DNA from: Salinimicrobium tongyeongense
GTDB lineage: Bacteria > Bacteroidota > Bacteroidia > Flavobacteriales > Flavobacteriaceae
DNA length: 64,000 nucleotides
Direction of reading: 5' to 3'
Assembly (NCBI RefSeq): GCF_026109735.1
Contig: NZ_CP069620.1
Coordinates: 1,860,001-1,924,000 of the forward strand
This document shows, piece after piece, positions 604 through 62,839 of the stretch (its first letter is position 1; every line of letters starts with the position of its first letter). The notes under the pieces are model-generated. The model was given only the letters and a program-made list of their open reading frames with translations, searched no databases and had not been told where the DNA came from. The position numbers and the translations under genes are program-made.

Positions 604-1190
604 TTTTTTGGGGCTTTAGCAGCCCCCACAAAATCAGATACCAGAGTGTAGGCCTCTTCAAGGGCTGTATTGAGGTCATTGTTGATTATAATATGATCAA
701 ACTGGGGCGCAGTGGCCAGTTCAATAGAGGCTTTTGCCACCCTCATGCTAATCTTGTCGGCCGATTCGGTTTTGCGCTTCTTCAGGCGTATTTTTAGCTC
801 TTCAATACTGGGGGGTTTCACAAAAACGGCCAGGGTTTTTTCAGGGTAAATATTCTTAATATCCAGCCCGCCAACCACATCGATGTCAAAAATGACATTT
901 TTGCCATGCGACCAAATGCGTTCTACTTCGCTCTTAAGCGTTCCGTAGAAGTTATCGCGATAGACTTCTTCCCATTCAAGGAATTCTTCGTTCTTGATCT
1001 TATTTTTGAATTCTTTCAGGTCTAAAAAATAGTAATCTTTAGCGTGCACTTCTGTGCCCCTTGGTGCCCGCGAGGTTGCAGAAATAGAGAATTCCAGGTT
1101 TAGTTCTTCCTGGGCAAGCAGGTATTTTACGATAGTGGTCTTTCCCGATCCCGATGGTGCCGAAAAGACGATTAATTTCCCATCTGCCAT
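600..1190 (-). CDS. gmk: Guanylate kinase
   Basis: Phosphorylates GMP to GDP with ATP; essential purine metabolism enzyme. The P-loop SAPSGSGKTT is at residues 10-19, followed by the GMP-binding region with SATSRAPR and the YYF segment. At 196 residues it is slightly shorter than the E. coli enzyme but complete. It is wedged between yicC and nadD: its ATG shares one base with the yicC stop (TAATG) and its stop overlaps the nadD start. A copy of the dispersed palindrome lies inside the gene, encoding NVIFD. Confidence 0.96.
   Translation of the reverse strand: MADGKLIVFSAPSGSGKTTIVKYLLAQEELNLEFSISATSRAPRGTEVHAKDYYFLDLKEFKNKIKNEEFLEWEEVYRDNFYGTLKSEVERIWSHGKNVIFDIDVVGGLDIKNIYPEKTLAVFVKPPSIEELKIRLKKRKTESADKISMRVAKASIELATAPQFDHIIINNDLNTALEEAYTLVSDFVGAAKAPKK
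886..904. repeat. Dispersed 19-bp palindrome, copy in gmk
   Basis: Matches TCAAAAATGnCATTTTTGA at 18 of 19 positions (last A replaced by C; central base A). It lies in coding sequence and reads as K-N-V-I-F-D on the gmk strand. A palindrome retained inside a conserved gene argues that it is not only a transcription terminator. Confidence 0.75.
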
Positions 1191-2047
1191 TAGAGTACGT
1201 TTAAAAGTTGTTCTTTGATCTTTTCCAGTTCGTCTTTCATTTGCACCACCAGCTGCTGCATGGGAGCATAATTTGATTTACTGCCAATGGTATTGATCTC
1301 ACGGCCCATTTCCTGCGAGATGAACCCGAGTTTTTTTCCGTTGGAATCTAATGACCCAAGCGTTTTCTGAAAGTAGTCCATATGATTTTCAAGCCTTACT
1401 TTTTCTTCGGTAATGTCGAATTTTTCAATGTAGAAGATCAACTCCTGCTCAAAGCGGTTCTGGTCAACATTTTCTTTGAGTTCGGCTACTCCTTTTTGCA
1501 GGCGTTCTCTCACGCCGGCAATCCTTTCGGGATCCATGGCAATTACTTTTTGCAACAGCTGCTGAATGTTTCCGGCTCTTTGCTCAAGTTCGTCTTCGAG
1601 CACCTTCCCTTCAGCCGACCTAAAATCGTTGATCTCCCTAAGGGCTTGGTCAACAGCTTCTTCTATGGCTTTGAATTCATTCTCGTCAATTTCTTCTCTT
1701 TCAGTCTTAAAGGCATCGGGCATGCGCACTGCCATTTGGAGCAGGTCAACATCTGAGGCCGGGTAAATCTCCCGCAATTGATTCATGTATTTCTTCACTG
1801 CAGCCGTATTTACGGCCGAGCTGGTTTCTTCTCCCGTAACTTCAACATAAACCGAAAAATCAACTTTTCCGCGGGTGAGTTCGCGTGAAATTTTATTGCG
1901 CAGCTGCAACTCCTTTTCCCTGTACTGGGATGGGATGCGGGCATTTAAATCTAAATTCTTGCTGTTGAGGGATTTGATCTCTACGGTGATCTTTTTGGAA
2001 GGCAGCTGTAAAACGCTTTTCCCAAAACCGGTCATTGACTGAATCAT
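1190..2047 (-). CDS. yicC: YicC/YloC family endoribonuclease
   Basis: Member of the YicC family (N-terminal YicC domain plus C-terminal DUF1732), whose members are reported endoribonucleases in E. coli and Bacillus. The 285-residue protein begins with the family hallmark MIQSMTGFG and near the C-terminus has EMGREINTIGSKSN, the conserved DUF1732 motif. It is the first gene of the yicC-gmk-nadD operon; the yicC-gmk pairing is widely conserved. The central region is rich in charged heptads and probably helical. Confidence 0.93.
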   Translation of the reverse strand: MIQSMTGFGKSVLQLPSKKITVEIKSLNSKNLDLNARIPSQYREKELQLRNKISRELTRGKVDFSVYVEVTGEETSSAVNTAAVKKYMNQLREIYPASDVDLLQMAVRMPDAFKTEREEIDENEFKAIEEAVDQALREINDFRSAEGKVLEDELEQRAGNIQQLLQKVIAMDPERIAGVRERLQKGVAELKENVDQNRFEQELIFYIEKFDITEEKVRLENHMDYFQKTLGSLDSNGKKLGFISQEMGREINTIGSKSNYAPMQQLVVQMKDELEKIKEQLLNVL

Positions 2048-2106
2048 AGGGTGATTTTATTGATGCACAAAGATAAACAAATTCAAGGCGGCACAAAGAA
2101 AAGTGG

Positions 2107-3066
2107 CTAGAGACGGCAATTGATGAATTGATAGGCGCGTTCTTCATTATAGGTTTCGGGTTTGTTTTGCATAAAACCTACATGCCCGCCATACTCGGGG
2201 GTTTCCAGGTAGAGGTGATCGCTTTCTCTGGCAATTTCAAAAGGATAGCATTCAGGAGACAAAAAGCCGTCATTCTTAGCATTGATAAGCAGTGTGGGCA
2301 GCTTGATGTGTTGTAAAAACCGGCGGGAGCTGTTCTTGTGATAGTAATCTAGTGCATTTTCAAAATCGTGCGCCCGGCTGGTGTACAGGTCGTCAATGTC
2401 GAGCAGGCTGTCGCAGGCTTTGATCTCTTCTTTGGAAAGTTGATCGGGGAAGTTCTTTGCGCGCAGCAGTAAATGATTTTGCAGTTTGATCTTGAACCGC
2501 TGGGCATACACGAAATTTTCACGCTTTTGAAGTTGTTTTAAACTTCCGTGGAGATCACAGGGCACCGAGACCATGACAGCTGCTTTTAACTGCTTCGGAA
2601 TTTCCCTTTCTTCGCCAAGGTATTTCAGCATTAAATTCCCGCCCAGGCTAAAGCCGTTAAAGGCCATTGTTGCATACCTGTTCTTTTTCAGAATATGTTC
2701 CACAACTTCCTGAAGGTCATTGGTGGCCCCGGCGTGGTACGACCTAAAGTGGCGGTTAATCTCGCCGCTGCAGCCTCTAAGGTTCACTGCGGCCACATCC
2801 CAGCCTCTCTGAGTGAAATATTTGGCCAGGCCGGTCACATAAGGGCGCTTTGCACTGCCTTCAAGCCCGTGGATCACGATAAGCACCTTTCCTGAATTTT
2901 CTTCGGAAAAGCTCCAGTCCAGGTCTAGAAAATCCCCGTCCTGCAGTTCCATCCGCTCCCGCTCCTGTGCAACCGGTGCCCGTCTAATCATGGCCGAATA
3001 CACTGTAGAAACATGGTAATTCCTGAAGATCATGGGTGGGCGATATGTGCTTTCTACTATTGGCAT
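2107..3066 (-). CDS. YheT-type alpha/beta hydrolase
   Basis: Alpha/beta-hydrolase of the YheT (COG0429) family; the physiological substrate is unknown, esterase-like activity is expected. The 319 residues contain HGLEGS (about 66-71, oxyanion region), VNLRGCSGE, the nucleophile elbow GFSLGGN with Ser140, an acid region NAKNDGF, and a terminal histidine in GGHVGF. The start at MPIVESTYRPP fits homologues of this family. It reads leftward toward yicC with a 59-bp gap and is divergent from the thioesterase gene, with 92 bp between them for both promoters. Confidence 0.88.
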   Translation of the reverse strand: MPIVESTYRPPMIFRNYHVSTVYSAMIRRAPVAQERERMELQDGDFLDLDWSFSEENSGKVLIVIHGLEGSAKRPYVTGLAKYFTQRGWDVAAVNLRGCSGEINRHFRSYHAGATNDLQEVVEHILKKNRYATMAFNGFSLGGNLMLKYLGEEREIPKQLKAAVMVSVPCDLHGSLKQLQKRENFVYAQRFKIKLQNHLLLRAKNFPDQLSKEEIKACDSLLDIDDLYTSRAHDFENALDYYHKNSSRRFLQHIKLPTLLINAKNDGFLSPECYPFEIARESDHLYLETPEYGGHVGFMQNKPETYNEERAYQFINCRL

Positions 3067-3106
3067 CGGGCTGTGCAGGGTTTGAAGACTGTAAATGAAA
3101 GAAAAA

Positions 3107-3134: not shown

Positions 3135-3158
3135 TAATTTTATCTCAAAATTAGAAAA

Positions 3159-4882: not shown

Positions 4883-4891
4883 GGGGTAAAA

Positions 4892-5671
4892 TTATTCAAT
4901 CTTCATGAAAGGCACCACTTCTTTCAGCGGAATTTCCATCATGATATCCCCGGCAGCGTAGGGCGCAATCTCATAAGAGTTGTAGATCAGGATCACCTTT
5001 TCTTCGGAAAAGCCAATATTCTCGGGCAGGCTGAAGGTTTCATTTTCAAACCAGAAACCTGTACTGTTAATGTTTTCAGCTTCAGGGATCTCCTGTTCCT
5101 GCCTAAACCTTTGCTCTACGAATGAAGTAAAATCCTCTTCAAAAATGTCATTTTTGGAAAGTAATTTCCCGGTAGTGGGATCCATGTTCAAAAAGGTAAG
5201 GGTTTTATAGCCGTGGGCGCCGCCGCTAAAAATTTCAGTGACTATTCCAATAGAGATCAAACTGTCGGTGTGCAGATATACTTTTTGATCTACGTAAGCT
5301 TCCCATGGTGGTTCTTCGGAAAAATTCCTCGCAGCTTCGCGATAGTCGCTCAGGAATTTTTCGGCCAGTTCTTCGAGACTCGAAATATTCGGGTTTTTCT
5401 GGGTAGAGACCAGGCCAATGGTGTGTTCATCAAGCCTTCGGTTTATGCTTTCAGAAACTTCCGAAGCACCCCTTGCCCTCACCACGTCTAACGCGATGAC
5501 AGAACAATCGTAATCGGCCGTGTCGCAGTTTTTCCCCGCCTTTCTCACCAGGCTCTCCTTCTGAAAGCTTAAAGGAGCTAAATTTCCTGCCGATTTTTCT
5601 TCTTCTTTGTCTTGCTTACACCCTGTAAATACCAGTGCCAGGAATACCAGGGCAAATAATTTGCGGAACAT
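4892..5671 (-). CDS. DUF3298/DUF4163 lipoprotein
   Basis: A 259-residue lipoprotein: signal peptide with lipobox VFTGC (Cys18), followed by an acidic-lysine linker. The body fits the RsiV/PdaC-like layout: an N-terminal DUF4163-like part and a C-terminal DUF3298-like part with the conserved GGAHGYK segment and PLKEVVPFM near the end. Such proteins bind or sense cell-envelope components; exact function unknown. First gene of a leftward group with the ArsC-like and EamA genes; only 9 bp separate it from the next gene. Confidence 0.82.
   Translation of the reverse strand: MFRKLFALVFLALVFTGCKQDKEEEKSAGNLAPLSFQKESLVRKAGKNCDTADYDCSVIALDVVRARGASEVSESINRRLDEHTIGLVSTQKNPNISSLEELAEKFLSDYREAARNFSEEPPWEAYVDQKVYLHTDSLISIGIVTEIFSGGAHGYKTLTFLNMDPTTGKLLSKNDIFEEDFTSFVEQRFRQEQEIPEAENINSTGFWFENETFSLPENIGFSEEKVILIYNSYEIAPYAAGDIMMEIPLKEVVPFMKIE
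5139..5157. repeat. Dispersed 19-bp palindrome, copy in DUF3298 gene
   Basis: 18 of 19 match to TCAAAAATGnCATTTTTGA (last base G; centre T). In coding sequence, read as K-N-D-I-F-E on the gene strand. Confidence 0.75.
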
Positions 5672-6906: not shown

Positions 6907-6911
6907 GTACT

Positions 6912-6930
6912 CCAAAAATGCCATTTTTGA
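6912..6930. repeat. Dispersed 19-bp palindrome, intergenic
   Basis: 18 of 19 match (first base C; centre C), starting 6 bp after the metB stop. A second small inverted repeat, CGGAAG-AA-CTTCCG, follows at 6939-6952, so the two could together act as a terminator. The rest of the 6907-7045 gap holds no recognisable gene. Confidence 0.8.
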
Positions 6931-9491: not shown

Positions 9492-9554
9492 TTGAAAATG
9501 TCTTTTTTGAGCCTTACAGGATGAAATAATTCCTCCCGAAAATGCCATTTTTGA
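9492..9554. repeat. Two copies of the dispersed palindrome before recO
   Basis: 9492-9510 (16 of 19) and 9536-9554 (17 of 19; CCGAAAATG-C-CATTTTTGA) lie 25 bp apart in the gap between the gdhA terminator and recO. A terminator role is unlikely for both because gdhA already has one. Confidence 0.65.
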
Positions 9555-10305: not shown

Positions 10306-12710
10306 TGAGATTTTACATCAGTTTAGCCCTGTTTTTTCTGCTTTTTACTGTTAGTTCGGCCCAGGAAATTCAGGTGCTTGATAAGGAGACCGGCGAGCCT
10401 GTTTTTAACGTGGCGGTCTTTAATAAAGATAAGTCAAAACACCTGCTTACCGGCTTTAATGGAGAAGCCAGTCTTTCAGGGTTTTCTTATAACGAGGTGA
10501 TTTTCTTCAGGCATGTTTCTCATTCAAATTTTCATGCTACCAAGCGGCAGATCCTTCAGCAGGAAGGAAAAGTGTATCTGGCATCTACTAAAAATGAGCT
10601 TTCAGAAGTAGTGCTTTCGGTATCAAGGTTTGAGCAGAACAAAGGAATGGTGCCGCAAAAGGTGGTCACCATTAATCAAAAAGATATACTTACATCGGCT
10701 CCGCAAACTTCGGCCGATTTGCTCGAGAGCACCGGGCAGGTGTACGTGCAGAAGAGTCAGTTAGGCGGCGGCAGCCCCATGATTAGAGGTTTTGCGACCA
10801 ACAGGTTATTGATTACTGTAGACGGCGTGCGTATGAATACCGCCATTTTTAGGGGTGGAAATGTACAGAATGTGATCTCTATAGATCCTCTCTCCATAGA
10901 AAGAGCCGAAGTGGTTCTTGGCCCCGGATCTTTGGTTTTTGGGAGCGACGCCATTGGAGGGGTAATTAATTTTCTAACACTTTCTCCTGCGTTTTCTGTG
11001 GCGAAGGGAGGGAATTTTTCGGGTCGTGCCTACACCCGCTATGCTACTGCCAATGAAGAAAAAACCGGGCACCTCAATTTGTCATACGGCACTAAAAAGT
11101 GGGCTTTTTTAAGCAGTGCTTCCTATTCAGATTTCGGGGATATGCGCATGGGAAGCCATGGCCCCGAAGAATACCTGCGGCCCGATTATGTGGTGAGGCG
11201 AAACGGACAGGATCTCATGGTAGAAAATGACAACCCGAAGGTGCAAAAACCCACGGGTTATAACCAGCTGAATTTGCTTCAGAAAATAAGGTTCAAACCT
11301 AACGAAGAATACAATTTTTCCCTCGGGATGATCTACTCCACAACTTCCGATTATCCGCGATACGACCGGCTTTACCGCAAACGAAACGGGGTTTTGAGGG
11401 CTGCCGATTGGTACTATGGCCCCCAGGAATGGCTGCAGACCAATTTTCAGCTAAACAAGGCCGGAAACGGCAAGATCTATAACGATGCCAAATTGACCGC
11501 GGCTTATCAGTACTTTGAAGAGAGCCGAAATGACCGTGCTTTTGGGGACGATATTTTTTACCACACCCAGGAAGAAGTCGATGCCTATTCTCTAAACCTT
11601 GATTTTGAGAAGGATTTTGCTTCTACCACCCTTTCTTACGGGGCAGAATATGTGTACAACAAAGTAGGGTCTAAAGGAAGTGAAAAGAACATCATCACCG
11701 GAGAGTGGGCTGCCGGTACTTCACGATATCCCGATGATGCCAGCTGGCAGTCTTTGGCGGCTTACGGGAATTTACAGTGGGAGCTGGCTCCTTCCCTTAA
11801 CCTGCAAACCGGCGCGAGGTATAATTACATTCTGCTTGATGCCGAATTTGATGAGGAGATTTACGACTTTCCCTTCTCAGATGCCAATTTGCGCACCGGT
11901 GCCTTAACCGGAAGTGCCGGATTAAACTGGCAGCAAAATGACATTTTTGGATGGCAATTCAACCTTTCTACCGGTTTTAGATCGCCCAACATTGATGACG
12001 TGGGGAAGATCTTTGATTCAGCCCCCGGGCTTGTGGTTGTTCCAAATCCCGATCTTGAACCCGAAAAAGCTTACAATGCCGAGCTAGGCTTAAGACTGAA
12101 TTTTGAGCATGTGGTAAAGCTGGAACTTGCCGGATATTACACCCTCTTGGAAGATGCCCTGGTGCGGCGGGATTTTGACCTGAATGGGGAGACCAGCATC
12201 GAATATCACGGAGAGCCCAGCCGGGTTCAGGCTATACAAAACGCTGCCCGTGCCCATGTTTACGGTTTTGAGGCCGGGGCAAAAATCAGGTTTAGCCAAC
12301 AGCTCAAAATAGAGAGTCAATTGAGCATTACCGAAGGAGAAGAAGAGCAGGATGACGGCACAACCGCGCCTTTGCGGCATGCGGCACCACTCTTTGGAAA
12401 TGCGCACCTTGTTTGGGAGAACGACAGGCTTAGGTTTGACCTTTTTGGCGAGTACAACGGCGAGATTAGTGCCTCTGAGCTGGCGCCTTTAGAAAAGGAC
12501 AAAGACTACCTTTACGCGATAAATGAAAATGGTGACCCCTACTCTCCTGAATGGTACACGCTTAACTTCAGCTCGCAATATCAGCTGGGCAAAATGTGGC
12601 TGGTCACTGCCAGCCTTGAAAATATTACCGATCAACGCTACCGCACGTACTCATCGGGAGTGGCGGCTGCCGGCCGCAACCTTATCCTCGCGCTGCAGTA
12701 CTCCTTCTAG
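10305..12710 (+). CDS. TonB-dependent receptor, heme/cobalamin-receptor-like
   Basis: Outer-membrane TonB-dependent transporter, 801 residues. Signal peptide about 1-19 (ending SSAQ), then a short carboxypeptidase-regulatory-like domain (about 20-95). The plug domain (about 112-225) contains GSPMIRGFATNRLLITVDGV and VLGPGSLVFGSDAIGGVINF, and the barrel ends in GRNLILALQYSF with a terminal Phe. The plug and C-terminus resemble heme/hemoglobin- or cobalamin-type receptors rather than SusC; no SusD partner is present. Ligand unproven. Translation is coupled to recO by TAATG. Confidence 0.88.
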   Translation: MRFYISLALFFLLFTVSSAQEIQVLDKETGEPVFNVAVFNKDKSKHLLTGFNGEASLSGFSYNEVIFFRHVSHSNFHATKRQILQQEGKVYLASTKNELSEVVLSVSRFEQNKGMVPQKVVTINQKDILTSAPQTSADLLESTGQVYVQKSQLGGGSPMIRGFATNRLLITVDGVRMNTAIFRGGNVQNVISIDPLSIERAEVVLGPGSLVFGSDAIGGVINFLTLSPAFSVAKGGNFSGRAYTRYATANEEKTGHLNLSYGTKKWAFLSSASYSDFGDMRMGSHGPEEYLRPDYVVRRNGQDLMVENDNPKVQKPTGYNQLNLLQKIRFKPNEEYNFSLGMIYSTTSDYPRYDRLYRKRNGVLRAADWYYGPQEWLQTNFQLNKAGNGKIYNDAKLTAAYQYFEESRNDRAFGDDIFYHTQEEVDAYSLNLDFEKDFASTTLSYGAEYVYNKVGSKGSEKNIITGEWAAGTSRYPDDASWQSLAAYGNLQWELAPSLNLQTGARYNYILLDAEFDEEIYDFPFSDANLRTGALTGSAGLNWQQNDIFGWQFNLSTGFRSPNIDDVGKIFDSAPGLVVVPNPDLEPEKAYNAELGLRLNFEHVVKLELAGYYTLLEDALVRRDFDLNGETSIEYHGEPSRVQAIQNAARAHVYGFEAGAKIRFSQQLKIESQLSITEGEEEQDDGTTAPLRHAAPLFGNAHLVWENDRLRFDLFGEYNGEISASELAPLEKDKDYLYAINENGDPYSPEWYTLNFSSQYQLGKMWLVTASLENITDQRYRTYSSGVAAAGRNLILALQYSF

Positions 12711-12835: not shown

Positions 12836-15800
12836 ATGATGAGCGCAAAGTTCCCTGAATATAAAGGACTTGACCTGCCAAAAGTGACCGAAGAAATTCT
12901 GCAATTCTGGAAGGAAAATGACATTTTTGAGAAGAGTGTAACTTCGAGAGATGGAGAAGAGCCGTTTATCTTTTTTGAAGGGCCACCTTCAGCAAACGGC
13001 CTGCCCGGAATCCACCACGTTATGGCGCGTGCCATTAAAGATATTTTTTGCAGGTTCAAAACCCAGAAAGGTTACCAGGTAAAGCGAAAAGCCGGATGGG
13101 ATACCCACGGCCTGCCCATAGAACTTGGCGTTGAAAAGGAACTGGGCATCACTAAAGAAGATATTGGGAAGAAGATAAGCGTAGAGGAATACAACGAGGC
13201 GTGTAAAAATGCCGTGATGCGTTATACCGATGTCTGGAATGACCTTACCGAAAAAATGGGTTACTGGGTAGATATGGATGACCCGTATATCACCTACAAA
13301 TCCAAGTACATGGAGACTGTATGGTGGCTGCTTTCCCAGATCTACAAAAAAGGCCTAATTTATAAGGGCTATACCATACAACCCTATTCCCCAAAAGCAG
13401 GAACAGGCCTTAGTTCACACGAGCTCAACCAACCGGGTACTTATCAGGATGTGACCGATACTACCGTTACTGCCATGTTTAAGGCGAAAAAAGAAACTTT
13501 ACCCGCATTTCTTTCCGAAATTGAAGGGGAAGTGTTCTTTATCGCATGGACCACCACTCCGTGGACTCTGCCTTCCAACACGGCACTCACTGTGGGGCCT
13601 AAAATAGAATACGTAACGGTTAAAACATATAACCAGTACACTTTTGAGCCCATTACGGTGATAGTTGCCAAAGAGCTGGCCGAAAAGCAGTTTGATAAGA
13701 AGTTCCAGAAAGTGGATTCTGAAGAGGCTTTGCAGGCATACAAAGAAGGGGATAAAAAAATACCATTTTTGACAGGTAAGTCTTTCACCGGTAAGGAAAT
13801 TGCAGAAAGCAGGTATGAGCAGTTGATGCCGTATGCGCAGCCGGATGAACATCCCGAAAATGCTTTCCGGATTATTCTTGGGGATTTTGTTACCACCGAA
13901 GACGGTACCGGTATTGTTCATACTGCTCCAACTTTTGGGGCCGATGATGCCATGGTTGCAAAACAGGCCAGTCCTGAAGTGCCGCCAATGCTTGTAAAAG
14001 ACGAGAATGATAATCTTGTTCCGCTGGTAGACCTACAGGGGAAATTCAGGCCCGAGCTAAAGGAGTTTGGAGGCAAATATGTCAAGAACGAGTATTACAA
14101 TGACGGCGAAGCCCCCGAGAAATCGGTAGATGTAGAGATCGCCATCAAATTAAAAGAAGAGAACAGGGCTTTTAAAGTTGAAAAATACCTTCACAGTTAC
14201 CCTAACTGCTGGAGAACCGATAAGCCAGTTCTATATTATCCGCTTGATTCCTGGTTCATCAAGATCACAGAGGTCAAAGACCGGATGCATGAACTCAATA
14301 AAGAAATTAACTGGAAGCCAAAATCTACCGGTGAAGGCCGTTTTGGAAACTGGCTTGCCAACGCGAACGACTGGAACCTCTCAAGATCCAGATATTGGGG
14401 AATCCCGCTGCCTATCTGGAGGACTGAAGACGGGAAGGAAGAAAAGATCATAGGATCTATTGAAGAGCTGAAGCAGGAAATGAGCAGGGCCGTAGAAGCC
14501 GGCTTTATGGACGCCGATCTTTTTGCAGGTTTTGAACCCGGAAACTTTAGCGATGAGAATTATGACAAGGTAGACCTGCATAAAAATGTGGTTGACGGGA
14601 TTGTACTGGTATCAGATTCAGGAAAACCCATGAAGCGTGAAGCCGACCTCATAGATGTTTGGTTCGATTCGGGTTCTATGCCTTATTCACAGTGGCATTA
14701 TCCTTTTGAAAATGCCGAAAAAGTTGAAAAGACCTGGCGCAAGGCCGATTTCATAGCCGAGGGTGTTGACCAGACACGAGGCTGGTTCTATACGCTGCAC
14801 GCCATTGCAACCATGACCTTTGACGATGTGGCATATAAAAATGTGGTTTCTAACGGACTTGTACTCGACAAGAACGGGCAAAAAATGTCCAAACGTCTTG
14901 GAAATGCCGTAGATCCTTTTGAAACCCTGGCGGCTTTTGGTCCCGATGCCACCCGCTGGTACATGATCTCCAATGCCAACCCATGGGACAACTTAAAATT
15001 TGATATTGAGGGAATTTCAGAAGTAAGGCGTAAATTCTTCGGAACCCTTTACAATACGTACTCATTCTTTAGTTTGTACGCTAATATTGATAACTTCACT
15101 TATTCCGAAGCCGATGTACCATTGGAGGAAAGACCTGAAATAGACCGCTGGATACTTTCAGAATTGCACACGCTCATTGAGAATGTTGATAAATTCTATG
15201 CCGATTATGAGCCTACCAGGGCTACCAGGGCAATTTCAGAATTCGTGCAGGAGAATTTGAGCAACTGGTACGTGAGATTGTGCCGAAGAAGGTTCTGGAA
15301 AGGCGAATACGGCACCGATAAGATCTCGGCTTATCAAACGCTTTACACCTGCCTTGAGACCGTAGCCAAACTGGGAGCTCCCGTGGCGCCTTTCTTTATG
15401 GACAGGTTGTACAAAGATCTCGAAAAGGCCACTCAGAAGGAAAGTTTTGAGTCGGTACATTTATCGCGTTTCCCCGAGCCAGATCAAAGTTTTGTGAATA
15501 AGGAGCTGGAGCGTCAAATGCAAAAGGCGCAAACCATCTCTTCGCTTGTACTTTCCCTTAGGAAGAAGGAGATGATCAAAGTGCGCCAGCCTTTACAGCG
15601 AGTGATGATCCCGGTGCTCGATGAGCAGCAGGGAAAGGAGATTGCGGCAGTGGCTGAACTCATCAAATCTGAAGTGAATGTAAAGGAACTTGAACTTATA
15701 GATGATGCTTCGGGCATCCTGGTAAAGCAAATCAAGCCTAATTTTAAAGTTCTGGGCCCCCGCTTTGGAAAAGACATGAAGCTGGTAGCGGCTAAGATCA

Positions 15801-41799: not shown

Positions 41800-44598
41800 A
41801 TGGAAATATTTTCTTTTGGGAGGATCCTGTTTTCTTTCCTGTTTTTGTCTGCAGCTGCGTTTGGGCAGCAGGTTAGCGGTCTTGTTATAGATGAGGTTTC
41901 GGGAGAGCCTCTCAGTAGCGTTACAGTAACCATATCTAATGCTGTCGTTGAGAAATCTACAGACGTTGACGGAACTTTTGTTTTTTCTGAAGGGCTTCCG
42001 CAGGGTGAACAAATTCTTACACTCTCCAAAAATGGCTTTTTCAGCAAACATTTTCCGCTTAAAATTACTTCTGAAGATATCAAGCTCGGCCAGATCCCTT
42101 TAGTGCCCAACCTGCCCGAAATGCAGCGGCAAACCGAAATTATATCCCTGGGCGATCACGAGCTGGACGAAGAGCAAAGTGTCTCAAATATTTCGGGGCT
42201 CCTGCAGGCTTCCAAAGATGTTTTTCTGAATGCGGCTGCTTTCGATTTTAGTCCCACCTTTTTTCGGCCGCGTGGTTACGACAGTGAATATGGGAAAGTA
42301 CTCATCAACGGCATAGAAATGAATAAAATCTTCTCCGGAAGGCCTTTGTGGAGCAATTGGGGCGGATTAAACGATGTGCAACGCCACCAGGAATTCTCTG
42401 CCGGTACAAGCCCTTCGGCAGTATCATTTGGAGGCCCGGCCGGTACCACGAACATCATTATGCGTGCTTCTCAATATACCCATGGCGGTAAATTTTCTTA
42501 TGCGGTGGCCAACAGGTCCTACTCCGGGAGGGCTATGGGCAGCTATCACAGTGGCTTGCTCGCATCAGGCTGGGCATATTCTTTTTCAGTGGCAAGGCGT
42601 TTTGCTGAAGAAAGTTTTGTGGAAGGGACTATCTATGACGCCAATTCAATTTTTGCTTCCGTAGAAAAGAAATTTAGTGAGGCTCACAGCCTGAATTTCA
42701 CCGGGTTCTACACCCCGAACAAACGCGGCCGAAATTCGCCAAACACCCGGGAAGTTTTTGATCTGAAGGGGAACACTTACAATTCTTACTGGGGTTGGCA
42801 GGAGGGGGAGATCAGGAATTCACGGGTGCAGCTTGTCGAGGAGCCCGTGTTTATGCTCAACCACGCCTGGAATGTGAACAAAGCTCTTGAAATTAATACC
42901 GCTGTGGCATACCAGTTTGGGAAGATGGGGAACAGCAGGATTGAATATGGCGGTAGCCGGTTATATCGCGAGGGCGCCGAAGATATCTTTCTGGGCGGGG
43001 GCAGCAACCCCGATCCTGCCTATTATCAAAAGCTGCCTTCTTATTTTCTGAGGTTTTCAGATGCTCCCCATTTCCGGGAGGCTTACCTGGCAGAGCAGGA
43101 ATTCCGGAGCTTTGGGCAAATCAATTGGGACGAGTTCTACCTGGCAAATGAGTCGGCTACTGCGGCGGGAGGCAATGCAATCTATGCTCTTTATGAAGAC
43201 AGGACCGATGACCGGCAATTTTCCGCAGCCTCCAATTTCAGGTTCGAGCTCAACGCTCAATTCGCTTTAACGGGTGGTGTGGATTTCAGGCAATTAGAGA
43301 GTGAAAATTTTGCATTGGTACTCGATCTTTTCGGGGCCACTTCTTTTCTTGATGTAGATGCCTTTTCAACAGGATCAAAGGCGCAGAATGACCTGCAAAA
43401 CCCCAACAAATTAGTTTCCGAAAATGACATTTTTAAATACCATTACAGCTTTAATGCCACAAAAGGCGGCGGATTCCTTCAGGCAGAATTCAAGCTTTCA
43501 AAAACAGAGACTTACCTGGCTGTCGAAACTTCTGCTACAACTTACCGGCGCACCGGGCATTTTCAGAATGGCAATTTCCCCGAGAATTCCCTGGGAGAAA
43601 GCCAAGAGATCAACTTCGGGAATTACGGTGCGAAGGCCGGGCTCACCTATAAATTGAATGGCAGGAATTATCTGAGCACCAATCTTTCCTGGTTCACCAA
43701 ACCACCGGCCTTGCGAAACAGCTTCTCCAATGCACGGCAAAACAATGACCTTGTTCTAGGCCTCACGAGTGAAAAAATAATGACTGCCGATGCCGGTTAC
43801 CAGGTCCGTACCCCATGGCTTACCGGAAGAATCACCGGATTTTATGGCCTTTTTGAAGATGCTGCCGAAGTCTCATTTTATTATGCCGACGGGCTTGCAG
43901 GTTCAGGAAGGGACGTTACCAATGCCTTTGTTCAGGAAATCATGACAGGTATAGATAAGCGGCATGTAGGGGTTGAGTTTGGACTGGAAATTCCGCTTAC
44001 GCCTACGCTTAAAATACGTTCTGCAGGTTCGATTGGTGAATACATCTACCACAGTAACCCCAACATCTACCTCACTTCAGATGATTTTACTGAAGCCAGG
44101 CACATGGGGCAGACTATCCTGGAGGGATACAGTCTTCCGGGTGGTCCGCAGCGAGCAGTACAGGGCGGATTTGAATATCGGGATCCTGCGTATTGGTGGA
44201 TCTCGGCTTCGGCCAACTTCTTTTCGCAGTCCTTTATCGATGTGGCCCCTCTCACGAGGACCCGTAATTTTCAAACCGATCTTGATGGCCTGCCGCTGCT
44301 GAATTTTGACGAAAATATTGCAAAAGAACTGCTGCGGCAGGAAGAATTTGACAGCTACATGCTGGTCAATGTGGCCGGAGGTAAATCCTGGAAAATTAAG
44401 AACAGGTTTTTGGGCGTTTTTGCCAGCCTCAACAACATCCTCGACACCACCTACACAACCGGAGGTTATGAACAATCCCGCAATGTGAATTACACCCTGC
44501 TAAAGGCCGATATGGAGAGGGACAAGCCCCTTTTTGGCCCTAAATACTGGTTTGGCCCCGGCACTACTTATTACGCTCACGTTTACTTAAGATTTTAA
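41800..44598 (+). CDS. TonB-dependent receptor upstream of DUF5689 gene
   Basis: Outer-membrane transporter of 932 aa: signal peptide about 1-23 (AAAFGQ), carboxypeptidase-regulatory-like domain (about 24-105: VSGLVIDEVSGEPLSSVTV), plug (about 115-225: FFRPRGYDSEYGKVLINGIEM and SFGGPAGTTNIIMR), barrel ending AHVYLRF. The gene is separated by 3 bp from a DUF5689 lipoprotein and is divergent from the exported EEP protein. This TonB-receptor/DUF5689/EEP arrangement points to nuclease-linked uptake. Confidence 0.88.
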   Translation: MEIFSFGRILFSFLFLSAAAFGQQVSGLVIDEVSGEPLSSVTVTISNAVVEKSTDVDGTFVFSEGLPQGEQILTLSKNGFFSKHFPLKITSEDIKLGQIPLVPNLPEMQRQTEIISLGDHELDEEQSVSNISGLLQASKDVFLNAAAFDFSPTFFRPRGYDSEYGKVLINGIEMNKIFSGRPLWSNWGGLNDVQRHQEFSAGTSPSAVSFGGPAGTTNIIMRASQYTHGGKFSYAVANRSYSGRAMGSYHSGLLASGWAYSFSVARRFAEESFVEGTIYDANSIFASVEKKFSEAHSLNFTGFYTPNKRGRNSPNTREVFDLKGNTYNSYWGWQEGEIRNSRVQLVEEPVFMLNHAWNVNKALEINTAVAYQFGKMGNSRIEYGGSRLYREGAEDIFLGGGSNPDPAYYQKLPSYFLRFSDAPHFREAYLAEQEFRSFGQINWDEFYLANESATAAGGNAIYALYEDRTDDRQFSAASNFRFELNAQFALTGGVDFRQLESENFALVLDLFGATSFLDVDAFSTGSKAQNDLQNPNKLVSENDIFKYHYSFNATKGGGFLQAEFKLSKTETYLAVETSATTYRRTGHFQNGNFPENSLGESQEINFGNYGAKAGLTYKLNGRNYLSTNLSWFTKPPALRNSFSNARQNNDLVLGLTSEKIMTADAGYQVRTPWLTGRITGFYGLFEDAAEVSFYYADGLAGSGRDVTNAFVQEIMTGIDKRHVGVEFGLEIPLTPTLKIRSAGSIGEYIYHSNPNIYLTSDDFTEARHMGQTILEGYSLPGGPQRAVQGGFEYRDPAYWWISASANFFSQSFIDVAPLTRTRNFQTDLDGLPLLNFDENIAKELLRQEEFDSYMLVNVAGGKSWKIKNRFLGVFASLNNILDTTYTTGGYEQSRNVNYTLLKADMERDKPLFGPKYWFGPGTTYYAHVYLRF

Positions 44599-44601: not shown

Positions 44602-45990
44602 ATGAAGAGAATTTTGCCATTTTTGAGCCTGTTGGTCTTATTTTCCTGTGCTCCTGAAGATGATTTTACAACACCCGGGGTGACGCTTAGCCCTGTAGCA
44701 ACCAATATAGATTTACAGGCCGTGGTGGGAATGTTTATGCAGGATCAGGAAAGGCTCTTGACTTTTGACAGAGACCTGGTGCTTGAGGCCTATGTGGTTT
44801 CCAGCGATGAAGCCGGAAATTTTTATAAGGAACTGGTGGTGCAGGACAAACCAGAGCAGCCAGTGGCCGGTATAAATATCAGGCTGAACATGGCTTCCTA
44901 TTACCAGTTTTATAACTTCGGAAGAAAAGTATACATCCACCTTAACGGCCTTAGCCTTGGCCAGGTGAATGGCGTAACCACTCTTGGTGTGGCCGAAGGA
45001 AACCAGATCATAAATATCCCCGAATCGCAGGTTGCTTTTCACATAAGCAGAAGTGCAGAGGTGGCCGCAATCACTCCCAGGCTCATAAAAGCTTCGGAAT
45101 TTAGTGATGCGCTAGAAAACCTGTACGTTAAAATTGAAGATGTGCAGTTCAATAAATTACTGGTACAAGCGCAAAACCCTGCAACTTATGCGGCAGAAGA
45201 AAATGATGAGTTTGACGGTGAGAGGCTGGTGGAAAGCTGCACGGGAGATTTCCCCTTTATAATTAGCACCAGTACCTATGCCGATTTTGCTGCTTTAAAG
45301 CTGCCCGCCGGTTCGGGTAACGTGCAGGGAATTTTGACCAGGGATTTCTATGATGAAATCTATACCCTTTATATGAACCTTCCCGAAGACATCAGCTTCA
45401 GCAATAGTTCGCGCTGTGACCCTGCAACTTCCAGCTGCGGCCTGGCTACTTCCAGGGGAGGTAAGATCCTTTTTGAAGATGATTTCAGCTTGCAAAAGAA
45501 TAATAAACCTGTTGATGGAAAAGGCTGGAAAAATATCGTTCAGGAAGGCTCTAGGCAATGGGAAGCCTTTACTGCCACGGGCGCAAACGCTTCCCTGGGC
45601 CGGTCGGCCAGGATGCGACCGGCAGGTTCGGGTGATTCCCGAAGCCTTAGCTGGCTTATCACCCCAAAGATCAATTTCGATGCAAATTCCGCAGAAGTAC
45701 TCAGCTTTAAAACTTCTACCAGCCTGGCAAACGGCAGTTTTATGGAAGTGCTAATTTCTACGGATTGGGATGGTTCCGAAGAAAACCTTTTGAAAGCAGA
45801 ATGGCAGATCCTGTCGGCGGCAAAAATAGCAGCAAAAAATGACTTTTTTGGCGATTGGATCTCTTCGGGGCTGGTAGATCTTTCATGCATTGCGGGGAAA
45901 GGCTATATAGCCTTCAGGTATACCGGCAGTGACCATTCCTATTACAATGGTGTTTATGAACTTGATGATGTTATGATTACTGCGGAATAA
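44602..45990 (+). CDS. DUF5689 lipoprotein with choice-of-anchor-like domain
   Basis: A 462-aa lipoprotein (lipobox LFSCA, Cys14). The N-terminal half fits DUF5689, an OB-fold-like domain (DLVLEAYVVSSDEAGNFYKELVVQD, RKVYIHLNGLSLG, and NLYVKIEDVQF); the C-terminal half (about 285-462: ILFEDDFSLQ, SWLITPKINFDA, DGSEENLLKAEW, FRYTGSDHSYYNGVYELDDVMI) resembles the choice-of-anchor J jelly roll. OB-folds can bind nucleic acid, so a capture role beside the receptor is plausible but unproven. Confidence 0.85.
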   Translation: MKRILPFLSLLVLFSCAPEDDFTTPGVTLSPVATNIDLQAVVGMFMQDQERLLTFDRDLVLEAYVVSSDEAGNFYKELVVQDKPEQPVAGINIRLNMASYYQFYNFGRKVYIHLNGLSLGQVNGVTTLGVAEGNQIINIPESQVAFHISRSAEVAAITPRLIKASEFSDALENLYVKIEDVQFNKLLVQAQNPATYAAEENDEFDGERLVESCTGDFPFIISTSTYADFAALKLPAGSGNVQGILTRDFYDEIYTLYMNLPEDISFSNSSRCDPATSSCGLATSRGGKILFEDDFSLQKNNKPVDGKGWKNIVQEGSRQWEAFTATGANASLGRSARMRPAGSGDSRSLSWLITPKINFDANSAEVLSFKTSTSLANGSFMEVLISTDWDGSEENLLKAEWQILSAAKIAAKNDFFGDWISSGLVDLSCIAGKGYIAFRYTGSDHSYYNGVYELDDVMITAE

Positions 45991-46015: not shown

Positions 46016-47595
46016 TGTCAAAATTAAAACGGGTGCAACAAGAAATTAATCTGCAGGTTTCTCCTGAAACTGCCGCAAGTACCGATGCCTTAAAACATCA
46101 TCTCTCCCGGGAAAAGGGGATTCCTTTTTCTGAAATAAGGCACATCGAAGTTGTGAAAAGGAGCATTGATGCCAGGCAAAAGAAGATAAAGGTGAATTTA
46201 CGGGTTCAGCTCTACCTGCAGGAGGATTTTGAAGCAGAGAATATCAATAAACCGGAATATAAGGATGTTTCGGCCGCCCAACCCGTGATCATCGTGGGAG
46301 CCGGCCCCGCCGGTTTATTTGCTGCGCTGCGATGTATAGAGCTGGGTAAGAAACCCATTGTCATTGAACGCGGAAAAGATGTGCGTGCCCGCCGCCGTGA
46401 CCTCAAAAAGCTGAATATAGAACACCTTGTAAACGAAGACTCCAATTACTGTTTTGGAGAGGGAGGTGCCGGCACTTATTCTGACGGAAAACTCTACACC
46501 CGAAGTAAAAAACGAGGTGATGTTAACAGGATCCTGGAACTTTTTGTTGCTTTTGGAGCTACCCGCGAAATTATGGTGGAGGCGCATCCGCATATTGGCA
46601 CCAACAAATTACCTGCAATTATCCAGAATATTACCAGAACGATAATTGAGCATGGGGGGGAAGTGCTGTTCAATGCCAGGCTGGTAGATCTTGAGGTGAA
46701 AAATAACGAAATCGAGGGCGTGCAATTGCTCGACGGAAGAAAAATAGCCGCTAAAAAAGTCATTTTAGCCACCGGGCATTCAGCCAGGGATATTTTCACG
46801 CTGCTATACAACAAAAAGATCTATATAGAAGCAAAACCTTTTGCGCTGGGCGTGAGGGTGGAGCATCCACAAAGCCTTATTGACCAGATACAGTACCACA
46901 CCCCGCACCGGGGAGAATTTTTGCCACCATCATCCTACAGCATTGTAAAACAGGTGGAAGGCCGGGGAGTTTATTCCTTTTGTATGTGCCCGGGCGGGAT
47001 CATTGCCCCCTGTGCCACCTCTCCCGGTGAGATCGTGACCAATGGCTGGTCTCCCAGCAGGAGAGACCAGGCCACTGCAAACTCGGGAATCGTGGTAGAG
47101 ATAAGACCTTCAGATTTTGCCATTTTTGGAACCTCACCCCTGGCAGCCCTTAAATTTCAGCAGGAAGTAGAGAAAAAAGCCTGGCTCGCCGGCGGACAAA
47201 CCCAAACCGCCCCTGCACAAAGGCTGGTAGATTTCAGTAATGGAAAAACTTCGGGCAAGCTTCCGCAAACCTCCTATAAACCCGGAATTACTTCAGTAAA
47301 CCTGGGGGAAGTGCTTCCGCAATTTGTTCATAAAAGCCTTCAGAAGGGATTTGTGGAATTTGGGAAAAGCATGAAGGGCTATTTTACCAATGAAGCCGTT
47401 GTGCATGCTACCGAATCCCGAACTTCCTCTCCCGTGCGTATTCCGCGGGATCCTGCGACTCTTGAGCACGTGCAAATAAAAGGCCTTTACCCTTGTGGCG
47501 AAGGTGCAGGCTATGCCGGCGGAATAGTTTCGGCAGCCGTAGATGGAGAAAAATGTGCTGAAAAAGCGGTGTTGGCAATAAACAATAAACAATAA
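46015..47595 (+). CDS. NAD(P)/FAD-dependent oxidoreductase (COG2509-like)
   Basis: A 526-aa flavoprotein of the uncharacterised COG2509-type family. It shows the FAD-binding VIIVGAGPAGLFAALRCIELG (about 92-112), VIERGKDVRAR, the FGEGGAGTYSDGKLYTR motif, VILATGHSARD, and C-terminal GLYPCGEGAGYAGGIVSAAVDG. No specific substrate is known. The start is non-ATG: GTG at 46015 gives MSKLKRVQQEI, while GTG at 46033 (VQQEINLQVSP) is also possible and would better fit the promoter box at 46008-46015. The gene ends inside an AATAAAC heptamer array. Confidence 0.87.
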   Translation: MSKLKRVQQEINLQVSPETAASTDALKHHLSREKGIPFSEIRHIEVVKRSIDARQKKIKVNLRVQLYLQEDFEAENINKPEYKDVSAAQPVIIVGAGPAGLFAALRCIELGKKPIVIERGKDVRARRRDLKKLNIEHLVNEDSNYCFGEGGAGTYSDGKLYTRSKKRGDVNRILELFVAFGATREIMVEAHPHIGTNKLPAIIQNITRTIIEHGGEVLFNARLVDLEVKNNEIEGVQLLDGRKIAAKKVILATGHSARDIFTLLYNKKIYIEAKPFALGVRVEHPQSLIDQIQYHTPHRGEFLPPSSYSIVKQVEGRGVYSFCMCPGGIIAPCATSPGEIVTNGWSPSRRDQATANSGIVVEIRPSDFAIFGTSPLAALKFQQEVEKKAWLAGGQTQTAPAQRLVDFSNGKTSGKLPQTSYKPGITSVNLGEVLPQFVHKSLQKGFVEFGKSMKGYFTNEAVVHATESRTSSPVRIPRDPATLEHVQIKGLYPCGEGAGYAGGIVSAAVDGEKCAEKAVLAINNKQ

Positions 47596-51300: not shown

Positions 51301-51341
51301 CTAAAGGAGTGTCAAAAATGCCATTTTTGAAACTCCTTTAG
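51301..51341. repeat. Extended 41-bp inverted repeat with perfect core palindrome
   Basis: The core 51312-51330 is a perfect 19 of 19 copy of TCAAAAATGnCATTTTTGA (centre C). It is flanked by CTAAAGGAGT (51301-51310) and ACTCCTTTAG (51332-51341), giving a nearly perfect 41-bp palindrome (only one unpaired base pair). It lies between two leftward genes and could form a long hairpin. Confidence 0.85.
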
Positions 51342-55260: not shown

Positions 55261-55279
55261 TCAAAAATGTCATTTTTGA
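55261..55279. repeat. Dispersed 19-bp palindrome, perfect copy at an ssb stop
   Basis: Perfect 19 of 19 match (centre T). The stop codon TGA of the first ssb gene lies inside it, so the palindrome provides the last codons and the stop. Confidence 0.8.
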
Positions 55280-57055: not shown

Positions 57056-57586
57056 ATGGATTTTCCGAATTTAAAAACAGAACGGCTGAAGTTACGGCAA
57101 ATCACAGAAGAAGATCTGGGAAATATTTATTCGGGGCTTTCACATCCCGAGGTGATTAAATACTACAGAGTCAATTACAGCAGTCTCGATGCCATCCGAG
57201 AACAGCTGGCGTGGTATGCGGAACTGGAAAGGACCCGCAGCGGGATTTGGTGGGCAATAATTTCTGATGAAGATGACATTTTCTGTGGGGCCATTGGGTA
57301 TCACAACATAAGCCCGATACACAAAAAAGCCGAACTGGGATTCTGGCTGCTTCCGGAGTTTTGGGGAAAGGGATTTATACAGGAAGCGATGGCGCCGGTG
57401 CTCGATTACGCTTTTCAGGATTTAAGGCTTCATCGCGTTGAAGCTTTTGTGGAAACTGAAAACATCAGTAGCCAAAATACCCTCAAAAAATGCCATTTTC
57501 AGCAGGAAGGGATTTTGAGGGATTCAGAATTTAAGAACGGCAGGTTTATAAGTGTTGCTGTTTTTTCACTAATCGATGAGCAGTAA
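57056..57586 (+). CDS. GNAT N-acetyltransferase, RimJ/RimL-like
   Basis: A 176-aa acetyl-CoA-dependent N-acetyltransferase. It shows the RimJ/RimL start LKTERLKLRQITEEDL, the AELGFWLLPEFWGKGFIQEAMAPVLDYAF region (acetyl-CoA-binding motif A, here WGKGFIQEA), and RVEAFVETENISSQNTLKKCHF (motif B). Substrate unknown; relatives modify ribosomal proteins or small amines. Confidence 0.88.
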   Translation: MDFPNLKTERLKLRQITEEDLGNIYSGLSHPEVIKYYRVNYSSLDAIREQLAWYAELERTRSGIWWAIISDEDDIFCGAIGYHNISPIHKKAELGFWLLPEFWGKGFIQEAMAPVLDYAFQDLRLHRVEAFVETENISSQNTLKKCHFQQEGILRDSEFKNGRFISVAVFSLIDEQ

Positions 57587-61299: not shown

Positions 61300-62106
61300 T
61301 TGGAAAATATTACAATACTCGGAACGGGCTGGCTGGGACTGCCGCTTGCAAAAATGCTACTTGCTGAAGGCTTTTCAGTGAAAGGCTCCACCACTTCGGC
61401 CCATAAAATGCCATTTTTGAAGACTGAAGGTATAGATGCCTTTCAAATAAAAGTTACTTCGGAAGGAATTGAGGGGAAGATTGAAGAATTTCTTTCAGAA
61501 ACAGATATTCTCATTATCGATTTTCCGCCGGGACTTCGAAAAAACCCGGAAATACATTATTCTGAAGCCATAAAAAAACTGGCTGAAGCAATTGAAGCTT
61601 CAGGTGTCAAAAAGCTGATTTTTGTGTCCTCAATTTCGGTTTATGAAGAGACTGAAAGCTTTCCGATGTATACAGAAGACACTCTGCCAAACGCCACTTC
61701 AGCTTCGGGGAAGGAGATTATTTCCGCAGAAAAAATCCTGCGTGAAAATGCCATTTTTGACACCACGGTGATTCGCTTTGGCGGACTTATGGGCGCGGGG
61801 CGGCACCCGGTCAAATATCTTGCCGGCCGAAAGGCCATTGCGAACCCGATGGGGCCGGTGAACCTTATTCATCTGGAAGATTGCCTGCTGGTGATTAAAA
61901 AACTGCTTGAAAATGCCATTTTTGGAGAGGTGTACAATGCCGTGTTTCCGCTTAACCCGCCAAAAGAGCGCTATTACCAGCAAAAAGCCCGGGAGATGGG
62001 ATTGGAGCTTCCGCAGTTTGATCATTACCTGCCTTCTGTAGGGAAAGTGATCTCGGCTTCCAAAGTAATGCGCGAGCTGGGAGTGGAATTTGGCGCCGGA
62101 ATTTAA
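61300..62106 (+). CDS. NAD(P)-binding Rossmann (extended SDR-like) protein
   Basis: A 268-aa dinucleotide-binding protein with the glycine-rich ITILGTGWLGLPLAKMLL (about 4-21) and FVSSISVYEET, typical of the COG0451/YeeZ type of NAD-dependent epimerase-like proteins. The start is TTG (61300); an upstream in-frame stop at 61279 and absence of any ATG before the first beta strand leave no better start. Three degenerate copies of the dispersed palindrome lie in the coding sequence (61402-61420, 61742-61760, 61907-61925). Confidence 0.82.
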   Translation: MENITILGTGWLGLPLAKMLLAEGFSVKGSTTSAHKMPFLKTEGIDAFQIKVTSEGIEGKIEEFLSETDILIIDFPPGLRKNPEIHYSEAIKKLAEAIEASGVKKLIFVSSISVYEETESFPMYTEDTLPNATSASGKEIISAEKILRENAIFDTTVIRFGGLMGAGRHPVKYLAGRKAIANPMGPVNLIHLEDCLLVIKKLLENAIFGEVYNAVFPLNPPKERYYQQKAREMGLELPQFDHYLPSVGKVISASKVMRELGVEFGAGI

Positions 62107-62176
62107 AAGCTTCGGCAATAATTATAAACCCGGGCCATAGAGTTTGGCAAACCTTTAAATTTTAAAAATTGGGGTG

Positions 62177-62740
62177 CTACACCTTCAACATGCCTCTAAA
62201 GCCCCGTGCGGCATAGTAAGATTGGGCGCCGTTGTGATATATGAACACTCTGCCAAACCTGAAATCGCCAAAAATAGCTCCTCCTAAATCTCTTATTCCC
62301 TGAGGGGTTTTTAACCAGCTGGAGGTTTTGGTGTCAAATTCGCCAAACTGTTGCAGGTGGTGGTAGTCTTCTTCAGTTAGAAGTTCAATTCCCATCTCGG
62401 AAGCAAGATCCACTACGTTGTGCTTGGGTTTGTTTGCCTTTCTGGAATTTAGTGCCTCGCGGTCATAACAGAGGCTTCTGCGGCCTTCAGGGCTTTCCTT
62501 TGAACAATCCATAAAAACATATTCACTCGATTGTTCATTAAGACTTACCACATCTGGCTCCCCACCAGTGTCTTCCATTTGCTTTAGCGACCATAGTTTT
62601 TTTGGGTTAGCACTGAGTTTTTTCTCCACCTTCTCCCATTTTATCTTCTGGTGGCGGGAAGTATGCTCCTCAAACCTTGATTTAAGTTTCTGCAGAAGGT
62701 GCGCAGTTTCTTCTGCATTTAATTTGCTGTTCGTTGCCAT
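62177..62740 (-). CDS. DUF4256 domain protein
   Basis: A 187-aa protein fitting DUF4256: LNAEETAHLLQKLKSRFEEH at the start, LWSLKQMEDTGGEPDVVSL, EYVFMDCSKESPEGRRSLCYDREAL, and the C-terminal GGAIFGDFRFGRVFIYHNGAQSYYAARGFRG. No function is known. Leftward single gene, convergent with the SDR-like gene. Confidence 0.85.
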   Translation of the reverse strand: MATNSKLNAEETAHLLQKLKSRFEEHTSRHQKIKWEKVEKKLSANPKKLWSLKQMEDTGGEPDVVSLNEQSSEYVFMDCSKESPEGRRSLCYDREALNSRKANKPKHNVVDLASEMGIELLTEEDYHHLQQFGEFDTKTSSWLKTPQGIRDLGGAIFGDFRFGRVFIYHNGAQSYYAARGFRGMLKV

Positions 62741-62820
62741 TGGTGAGCTTAAAAGTTATATTCAAACAAGTTAGGAAGATAATAAATTTATTTCACCGGA
62801 CTTACCTGTAAAAAGAGCTC

Positions 62821-62839
62821 TTAAAAATGTCATTTTTGA
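62821..62839. repeat. Dispersed 19-bp palindrome, in the 62741-63092 gap
   Basis: 18 of 19 match (second base T; centre T). The 352-bp gap also contains an inverted repeat AGGCTTTTAAT ... ATTAAAAGCCT (62895-62921) without a T tail. I see no gene in the gap. The DUF1508 gene begins at 63093. Confidence 0.8.

Follow-up and report, generated by a model that had tools for sequence, protein, structure and literature searches.

The DNA considered here is a window of 64,000 nucleotides, bases 1860001-1924000 of a 3.51-Mb single-contig Salinimicrobium genome (G000), and the question that it raises is why a 19-bp palindrome recurs throughout it, between genes as well as inside them. An earlier note, made from the letters alone, had described the repeat and offered three candidate roles: a binding site for a nucleoid or chromosome-segregation protein, a DNA uptake or restriction-related signal, or an element resembling repetitive extragenic palindromes (REPs). 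Comparison with 11 congeners, which together with G000 form a genus set of 12 genomes, and with more distant relatives suggests that the repeat is probably a DNA-uptake sequence of Salinimicrobium, marking DNA of the same group for natural transformation. Among the proposed roles, that of an uptake signal gains support from the hallmarks of such sequences and from the near-absence of the word in two congeners (G001 and G004), while segregation and REP-like spread lose ground.

All seven copies that had been placed at no or one mismatch to TCAAAAATGNCATTTTTGA were recovered (two exact, at 51312 and 55261, and five with one mismatch, at 886, 5139, 6912, 28303 and 62821), as were the eight weaker ones, one with two mismatches (9536) and seven with three. 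These 15 places compare with 0.11 expected from 100 dinucleotide shuffles, in which the largest count was 1, and the complete genome holds 66 exact copies of the palindrome and none of its reversed control, so that the copies exceed chance as the note had argued. An iterated symmetric matrix, with a threshold set at two passes in a Markov surrogate, adds further copies and leaves the one at 12912 under its threshold. The copies in the window are as follows, including those that are also sites in the congener G003:

886..904, palindrome with 1 mismatch, inside the guanylate kinase gene (600-1190, minus strand), matrix score 22.6
5139..5157, palindrome with 1 mismatch, inside gene 4892-5671 (minus strand), matrix score 35.8
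6912..6930, palindrome with 1 mismatch, convergent intergenic, directly past the gene end at 6906, matrix score 28.4
9492..9510, weaker copy with 3 mismatches, intergenic, upstream of recO, matrix score 17.8
9536..9554, copy with 2 mismatches, intergenic, upstream of recO, matrix score 36.4
11932..11950, matrix-detected, in gene 10305-12710 (plus strand), score 20.1
12912..12930, weak copy with 3 mismatches, in ileS, under the matrix threshold
13754..13772, copy with 3 mismatches, in ileS, matrix score 26.9
21082..21100, matrix-detected, in gene 20451-21452 (minus strand), score 19.9
28303..28321, palindrome with 1 mismatch, intergenic, matrix score 31.8
33028..33046, matrix-detected, in gene 32799-34433 (plus strand), score 20.6
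40794..40812, matrix-detected, in the nuclease gene described below, score 20.0, also a G003 site
41361..41379, matrix-detected, in the nuclease gene, score 29.6, also a G003 site
42026..42044, matrix-detected, in the barrel gene described below, score 21.7, also a G003 site
43418..43436, copy with 3 mismatches, in the barrel gene, matrix score 30.5, also a G003 site
45833..45851, matrix-detected, in the DUF5689 gene described below, score 24.1
46751..46769, matrix-detected, in gene 46015-47595 (plus strand), score 23.7, also a G003 site
51312..51330, exact palindrome, intergenic, matrix score 36.8, also a G003 site
55261..55279, exact palindrome, at the edge of a short predicted open reading frame (ORF; 55270-55614, minus strand), probably intergenic, matrix score 25.2
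57484..57502, matrix-detected, in gene 57056-57586 (plus strand), score 26.3, also a G003 site
61402..61420, copy with 3 mismatches, in gene 61300-62106 (plus strand), matrix score 19.8
61742..61760, copy with 3 mismatches, in gene 61300-62106 (plus strand), matrix score 26.2, RNA fold unremarkable (z -0.1), also a G003 site
61907..61925, copy with 3 mismatches, in gene 61300-62106 (plus strand), matrix score 28.3, also a G003 site
62821..62839, palindrome with 1 mismatch, intergenic, upstream of a DUF4256 gene, matrix score 36.4

The anatomy of the word was determined in a sample of 80 spaced stretches plus the window (1,661,250 bases, 47% of the genome), in which gene calls came from a simple ORF caller based on codon bias and gene edges are approximate. 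The most over-represented 8-mer of this sample is CAAAAATG (z 14.8; runner-up 5.7), and the core AAAATG-N1-CATTTT occurs 195 times compared with 2.0 expected, while AAATG/CATTT pairs at a spacing of 0, 2 or 3 are rare. As claimed for the window, cores lie both between genes (119) and within them (76), with intergenic DNA making up 14% of the sample, and the reading K/E-N-x-I-F is indeed the commonest frame of the coding cores (47 of 73). The 19-bp palindrome holds as the core, but its extent had to be refined, since the site is conserved out to about 20 bp on either side and forms a dyad of about 40 bp. Both arms carry an A/T tract at positions 3-7, G/C at 12-13 and a second A/T tract at 16-20, features that are weaker but present in coding copies. 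The matrix detects 439 sites in the sample (224 intergenic, median score 29.2; 215 coding, median score 23.7), from which approximately 930 sites per genome, or roughly one per 3-4 kb, can be extrapolated. A second gapped palindrome, AGGTTT-N3-AAACCT, is mildly enriched, with 11 copies in the G000 sample and six in the sample of the congener G002.

Within genes, the word is maintained as DNA. When the codons are preserved, as the note had proposed for a null model, 20 synonymous shuffles yield 5.4 coding cores (standard deviation 2.7, highest 13), compared with the 73 observed. A check of synonymous codons gave a similar answer: where a codon of a coding core still encodes its amino acid in G003, the codon itself is unchanged in 104 of 114 instances, with 83.0 expected from the same codons elsewhere (z 4.6), and amino acid identity between G000 and G003 is lower at the cores (0.841) than elsewhere (0.911), indicating that the coding cores are constrained at the DNA level. 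For G000 and G002 the corresponding codons are identical in 39 of 57 cases (28.9 expected). Places are retained as well. A 400-kb portion of G003 contains 104 sites; 59 of them could be matched in the G000 sample, 43 over their full extent, and of these 43, 36 are kept (21/26 coding and 15/17 intergenic), a proportion biased to alignable places because unmapped sites were not counted. Between the two genomes the 19-bp core is 0.92 identical in coding and 0.91 in intergenic DNA, and the next 13 bp 0.87 and 0.78, respectively. The coding pairs are gap-free over 45 bp in 25 of 26 cases, and of the 26 coding orthologues in G002 and G004 that lack the site, 17 are likewise gap-free, the others having no more than three consecutive gap bases (by eye). 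In the coding alignments to G002 or G004 no word-sized insertion was seen; sites change in small steps. The pattern of codons and amino acids at the cores resembles that of the DNA uptake sequence (DUS) of Neisseria, for which a conserved word at permissive places has been described (PMC2397512).

The distribution along the chromosome is even in most of the genome. The skew of guanine over cytosine in the sample places the origin at about 1.65 Mb and the terminus at about 3.3 Mb, and the replichore plot suggested by the note shows no origin-terminus trend in density (rho 0.06, p 0.66) over the 61 stretches with a guanine-cytosine (GC) content above 0.42, which carry 5.99 sites per 20 kb with a variance of 4.74. 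Random fragments from these stretches contain at least one site in 78% of cases at 5 kb and in 95% at 10 kb. By contrast, the 14 stretches with a GC content below 0.41 hold 2.7 sites per 20 kb as against 6.0 in the 61 (p 1.5e-5; the six of 81 stretches that lie in between were omitted), and 1.8 when the stretch L192 is set aside, which runs counter to the expectation that an AT-rich word should be commoner there. With low GC content as a proxy, the word is rare in recently acquired DNA, the exception being L192. This stretch (G000, contig C1, from 2939559) contains at about 2040-7720 an array of attC-like repeats and integron-like cassettes with 14 sites, and by eye the palindrome occupies the inner variable part of eight of about ten attC-like sites, the other low-GC stretches being poor in the word. 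At about 6590-7590 of L192 lie two apparently identical head-to-tail units of about 500 bp, each ending in an attC-like site.

Following the note's proposal to count it in relatives, exact copies were found in 8 of 11 congeners (9 of 12 with G000 included) and in none of 28 other genomes. A scan of a genome collection gave, among the matches listed (80 of at least 120 stretches), 65 from Salinimicrobium and 15 from other taxa; the latter have one site each and were taken as chance. A sequence model built from 70 sites has at least about 150 matches on both strands in each of nine strong genus genomes, 143 weaker matches in G002, 47 in G004 and two in G001, whose assembly is 74% complete. Of 197 genomes from other genera of the family, 193 gave weak matches, up to 21 per genome (best E value 4.5e-5), and four gave none, under stricter filters and a limit of 32, so that these counts are not directly comparable to those within the genus. 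Several of the G002 matches lie on short contigs and may be attC-like arrays as in L192. In G002 the architecture is the same, with the CA beside the centre relaxed, and 44 sites occur in 400 kb compared with about two expected; this set would be a dialect or one in decay. Three sites exceed the threshold in 400 kb of G004. Of the mapped G000 sites, G002 keeps 3/17 coding and 0/2 intergenic ones, and G004 0/12 and 0/3. In a DNA tree of ileS the ten genomes with the motif cluster together (support 91/93), separate from G001 and G004, while the ileS protein tree joins the latter two (95) and leaves the base unresolved.

The near-absence of the word in G001 and G004 coincides with transformation genes that are broken or undetected there. 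In Riemerella anatipestifer, transformation is reported to need ComEC, DprA, ComF and RecA together with four proteins found mainly in Flavobacteriaceae (PMC8459023). Of these, RS04915, which has a carboxypeptidase-regulatory domain and is described as a beta-barrel, neighbours RS04920, which combines DUF5689 with DUF5017 and a choice-of-anchor J domain (PMC8459023). The other two are RS02645 and RS09020, and a HHH periplasmic protein and a DUF1343 protein also belong to this type of system. The window contains, at 41800-45990, an adjacent pair of the same kind beside a nuclease gene:

40645..41706, minus strand, endonuclease/exonuclease/phosphatase family protein (PF19580), adjoining the barrel-DUF5689 operon
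41800..44598, plus strand, barrel-type protein with a CarboxypepD_reg domain, counterpart of R. anatipestifer RA0C_RS04915 by domain and gene order
44602..45990, plus strand, DUF5689 and choice-of-anchor-J protein, counterpart of R. anatipestifer RA0C_RS04920 by domains and gene order

In a test of this pair, the family NF052645 aligned along its entire length, scoring 198 bits, under its cut-off of 475. The DUF5689 protein, a candidate surface DNA receptor, is intact in all ten motif genomes, with 66-87% identity in those besides G000; the barrel, too, occurs in all ten (nine with the strong and one with the weak motif; 62-90% identity), as does nearly the whole ComEC domain (PF03772), in frames of 648-690 amino acids. 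In G004, comEC is reduced to a fragment (profile positions 104-171) with four stops, scoring 31.8 bits, just over the cut-off of 23, in a locus of less than 1 kb between ORFs that by eye are NlpC/P60-like and thioredoxin-like. Furthermore, the last 78 amino acids of the PF19580 nuclease lie there beside the last 50 of the DUF5689 protein, and the barrel between them is gone; because the remnants adjoin and the genes on both sides are kept, this looks like one deletion. In the 74% complete G001 the barrel, the DUF5689 protein and DprA were not found. A weak ComEC match in G001 (19.2 bits) is by eye a holin-like ORF and probably spurious.

Three more genes of the window were noted, all on the plus strand. 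A TonB-dependent receptor (34580-37126), 28% identical over part of its length to the barrel protein, and its neighbour (37138-38211), which has no Pfam match, are both kept in G004, which lacks the transformation operon. The protein at 38272-40122, with Endonuclease I, FN3 and lamin-tail domains, lies beside the transformation operon and has no counterpart in the fetched G004 stretches of the contig concerned.

If the word is an uptake sequence, a surface complex of the Riemerella type, composed of the barrel and the DUF5689 protein, would bind the dyad, and fragments bearing it would be imported through this complex and then by way of ComEC and DprA. Repeated uptake and recombination would keep the word at its places, some intergenic copies would be reused as terminator-like hairpins, and G002, with intact genes and a weaker, altered motif, would represent a dialect. 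We infer both that the word drives uptake and which protein reads it. A wider proposal, put forward tentatively and with appreciably less confidence, is that this may be a symmetric uptake sequence, the first to be described in Bacteroidota, read at the surface by the barrel and its DUF5689 partner and by no pilin, with a dialect in one congener and lost where the machine is lost, and that single integron-like cassettes may be addressed for uptake via their attC-like sites. Among the open-licence papers searched, none was found to report this repeat or to demonstrate an uptake sequence for Bacteroidota.

Several points speak against an uptake function. The barrel match of G005 contains one TAG stop, and DprA persists in G004, although in a shorter frame (281 amino acids compared with 369-393 in nine others; the match in G009 lies at a contig edge). 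Since the ileS protein tree pairs G001 with G004, the association with the genes may rest on a single event, and the division of ten genomes against two gives 1/66 = 0.015, calculated by hand and uncorrected. Relatives of the pair also occur in two genomes of other genera with no exact copies of the word, G012 (barrel 43%, DUF5689 protein 34% identical over part) and G028 (34% and 27%). G004 has a faint motif-like residue (11 sites compared with about two in a refit), which could be relics or plain terminators. Inside genes, 402 half-sites lie outside the matrix dyads and are enriched too, half-sites in genes exceeding synonymous shuffles at 247 versus 69.5 and 295 versus 99; the half-site, as an asymmetric uptake word whose pairs form the palindromes, may therefore contribute, while the strict N1 spacing favours the dyad as the unit. 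The uptake sequences known so far lack symmetry and are recognised by type IV pilins, and the word here is symmetric. A single-sequence structure prediction of the DUF5689 protein was unusable, with a mean predicted local distance difference test (pLDDT) score of 31, and no solved relative was detected at E values up to 1. An ATPase of the T2SSE type exceeds the cut-off in G003 only, one of the 12 genus genomes, pilins not having been searched for. This ATPase, at 22380-23510 of contig C21, is perhaps of mobile-element origin. Pili are not missing from all flavobacteria, since some Pil homologues are reported for F. johnsoniae (PMC7965970).

The main rival to an uptake sequence is that the dyad is bound by an abundant, genus-specific nucleoid-associated protein and that its near-absence from G001 and G004 is coincidental. 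An odd-centred 19-bp core within a symmetric site of about 40 bp, whose arms bear A/T tracts at positions 3-7 and 16-20, would suit a dimeric DNA-bending protein, and so would the DNA-level selection, the even spread and the coding copies without hairpin covariation. Nevertheless, no candidate protein was found, the presence of at most one ParB_N protein per genome argues against a Noc-like paralogue, and the scarcity in low-GC DNA and the permissive protein positions fit uptake sequences at least equally well. As, in addition, the genomes without the motif have three transformation genes disrupted or not detected, a nucleoid protein is considered unlikely, even if it is the strongest competitor. 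The sites of Noc, SlmA and MatP are also dispersed palindromes, bound by dimers, but show an origin-terminus bias that the Salinimicrobium word lacks; a segregation-type site is disfavoured on that ground and because a second ParB was not found in any genome. Further candidates were discarded as well: a regulatory site, as divergent regions are poorest in the word and half of the sites lie in genes; an auto-regulated binding protein, as none stood out by eye among genes with upstream sites; and carriage by phages, as the two single sites in viral contigs were taken as chance.

That the copies are intrinsic transcription terminators which share their stem sequence by chance would explain why they concentrate just past gene ends and why convergent regions are densest (1.62 sites per kb) and divergent ones poorest (0.60). 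The intergenic copies show excess arm complementarity at 10, 12, 13 and 15 bp on either side of the centre (z 3.7 and 3.9 at 12 and 13), three intergenic sites chosen by sequence form long hairpins (-24.5 to -31.4 kcal/mol, z -8 to -9), and the copy at 51312 sits in a 51-nt hairpin with a single 1x1 mismatch (-25.4 kcal/mol, z -6.3). However, 215 of the 439 sites lie inside genes, where they are conserved at the DNA level and have no excess arm complementarity outside the core, two coding sites fold no differently from shuffles, and stems of 12 or more are found in 50/224 intergenic (11 with a T-run) and 14/215 coding sites (three with a T-run), that is, long stem and T-run together in 14 of 439. 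With covariation confined to intergenic copies, the word seems to be mainly a double-stranded signal that is partly reused as hairpins. The note's statement that a terminator role alone does not suffice is thereby upheld, and terminators as the whole explanation are very improbable. Still less probable is dispersal of the palindrome by a transposase, as a REP-like or other mobile element, although the copies are dispersed and the short ORF at 63467-63937 (minus strand) encodes MPNHIHGI, a motif typical of REP-associated transposases, beside a PQQPS repeat. Pfam gave no match for this ORF, the sites show no enrichment of GTAG in their vicinity (3.97 versus 5.77 per kb), and the nearly gap-free coding pairs, lacking repeat-sized insertions and hairpin covariation, disfavour this candidate of the earlier note. 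Equally remote is a palindrome without selected function, arising from a methyltransferase and repair bias as in HIP1 of cyanobacteria, which is likewise highly iterated and lineage-limited; HIP1 is an 8-bp GC-rich palindrome tied to methyltransferases with sites inside it (PMC4390886), whereas conservation here spans about 40 bp with degenerate A/T tracts.

What is understood of self-DNA preference comes mostly from bacteria such as Neisseria and Haemophilus, in which the receptor sits on type IV pili. Riemerella is described as depending on outer-membrane proteins that differ from those of the well-known machines (PMC8459023). Riemerella columbina is reported to favour DNA of its own, and untested A-rich k-mers of up to 10 bp are given there as putative uptake words (PMC7965970). 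With candidates for both the signal and the receptor operon in a single genus, the question of self-DNA becomes directly testable. An uptake word could also explain the movement of cassettes and core alleles among marine flavobacteria, and could offer sequence-based detection of transformable lineages in a phylum with little-explored competence.

Among known systems, the uptake signal sequence (USS) of Pasteurellaceae, with its extension of A/T tracts beside the core, resembles the Salinimicrobium word in joining a short core to A/T tracts about a helical turn away and in its genome-wide spread, but is an asymmetric and unrelated word. For USS, a pilin is the predicted receptor (PMC12616744). 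The likeness to the DUS of Neisseriaceae extends to a copy number of about a thousand or more, coding and intergenic copies, conserved places, avoidance of presumably acquired DNA, a possible reuse in terminators and a possible dialect, in line with reports of DUS in the core genome, at permissive positions and as a conserved word that is absent from acquired genes (PMC2397512; PMC1852404; PMC3630211). By contrast, DUS is a 10-12-mer without symmetry that the pilin ComP binds, and the word here is a symmetric dyad of about 40 bp. With R. anatipestifer, Salinimicrobium shares the counterparts of RS04915-RS04920 in the window and ComEC and DprA in the genome, although no uptake word is established in Riemerella and the assignment rests on domains and gene order, not on direct alignment. 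As the word is symmetric and a pilus-type ATPase is lacking in all genus genomes but G003, it is not to be filed as a neisserial DUS or a pasteurellacean USS; by analogy it would work like both, and is probably a flavobacterial kind of its own.

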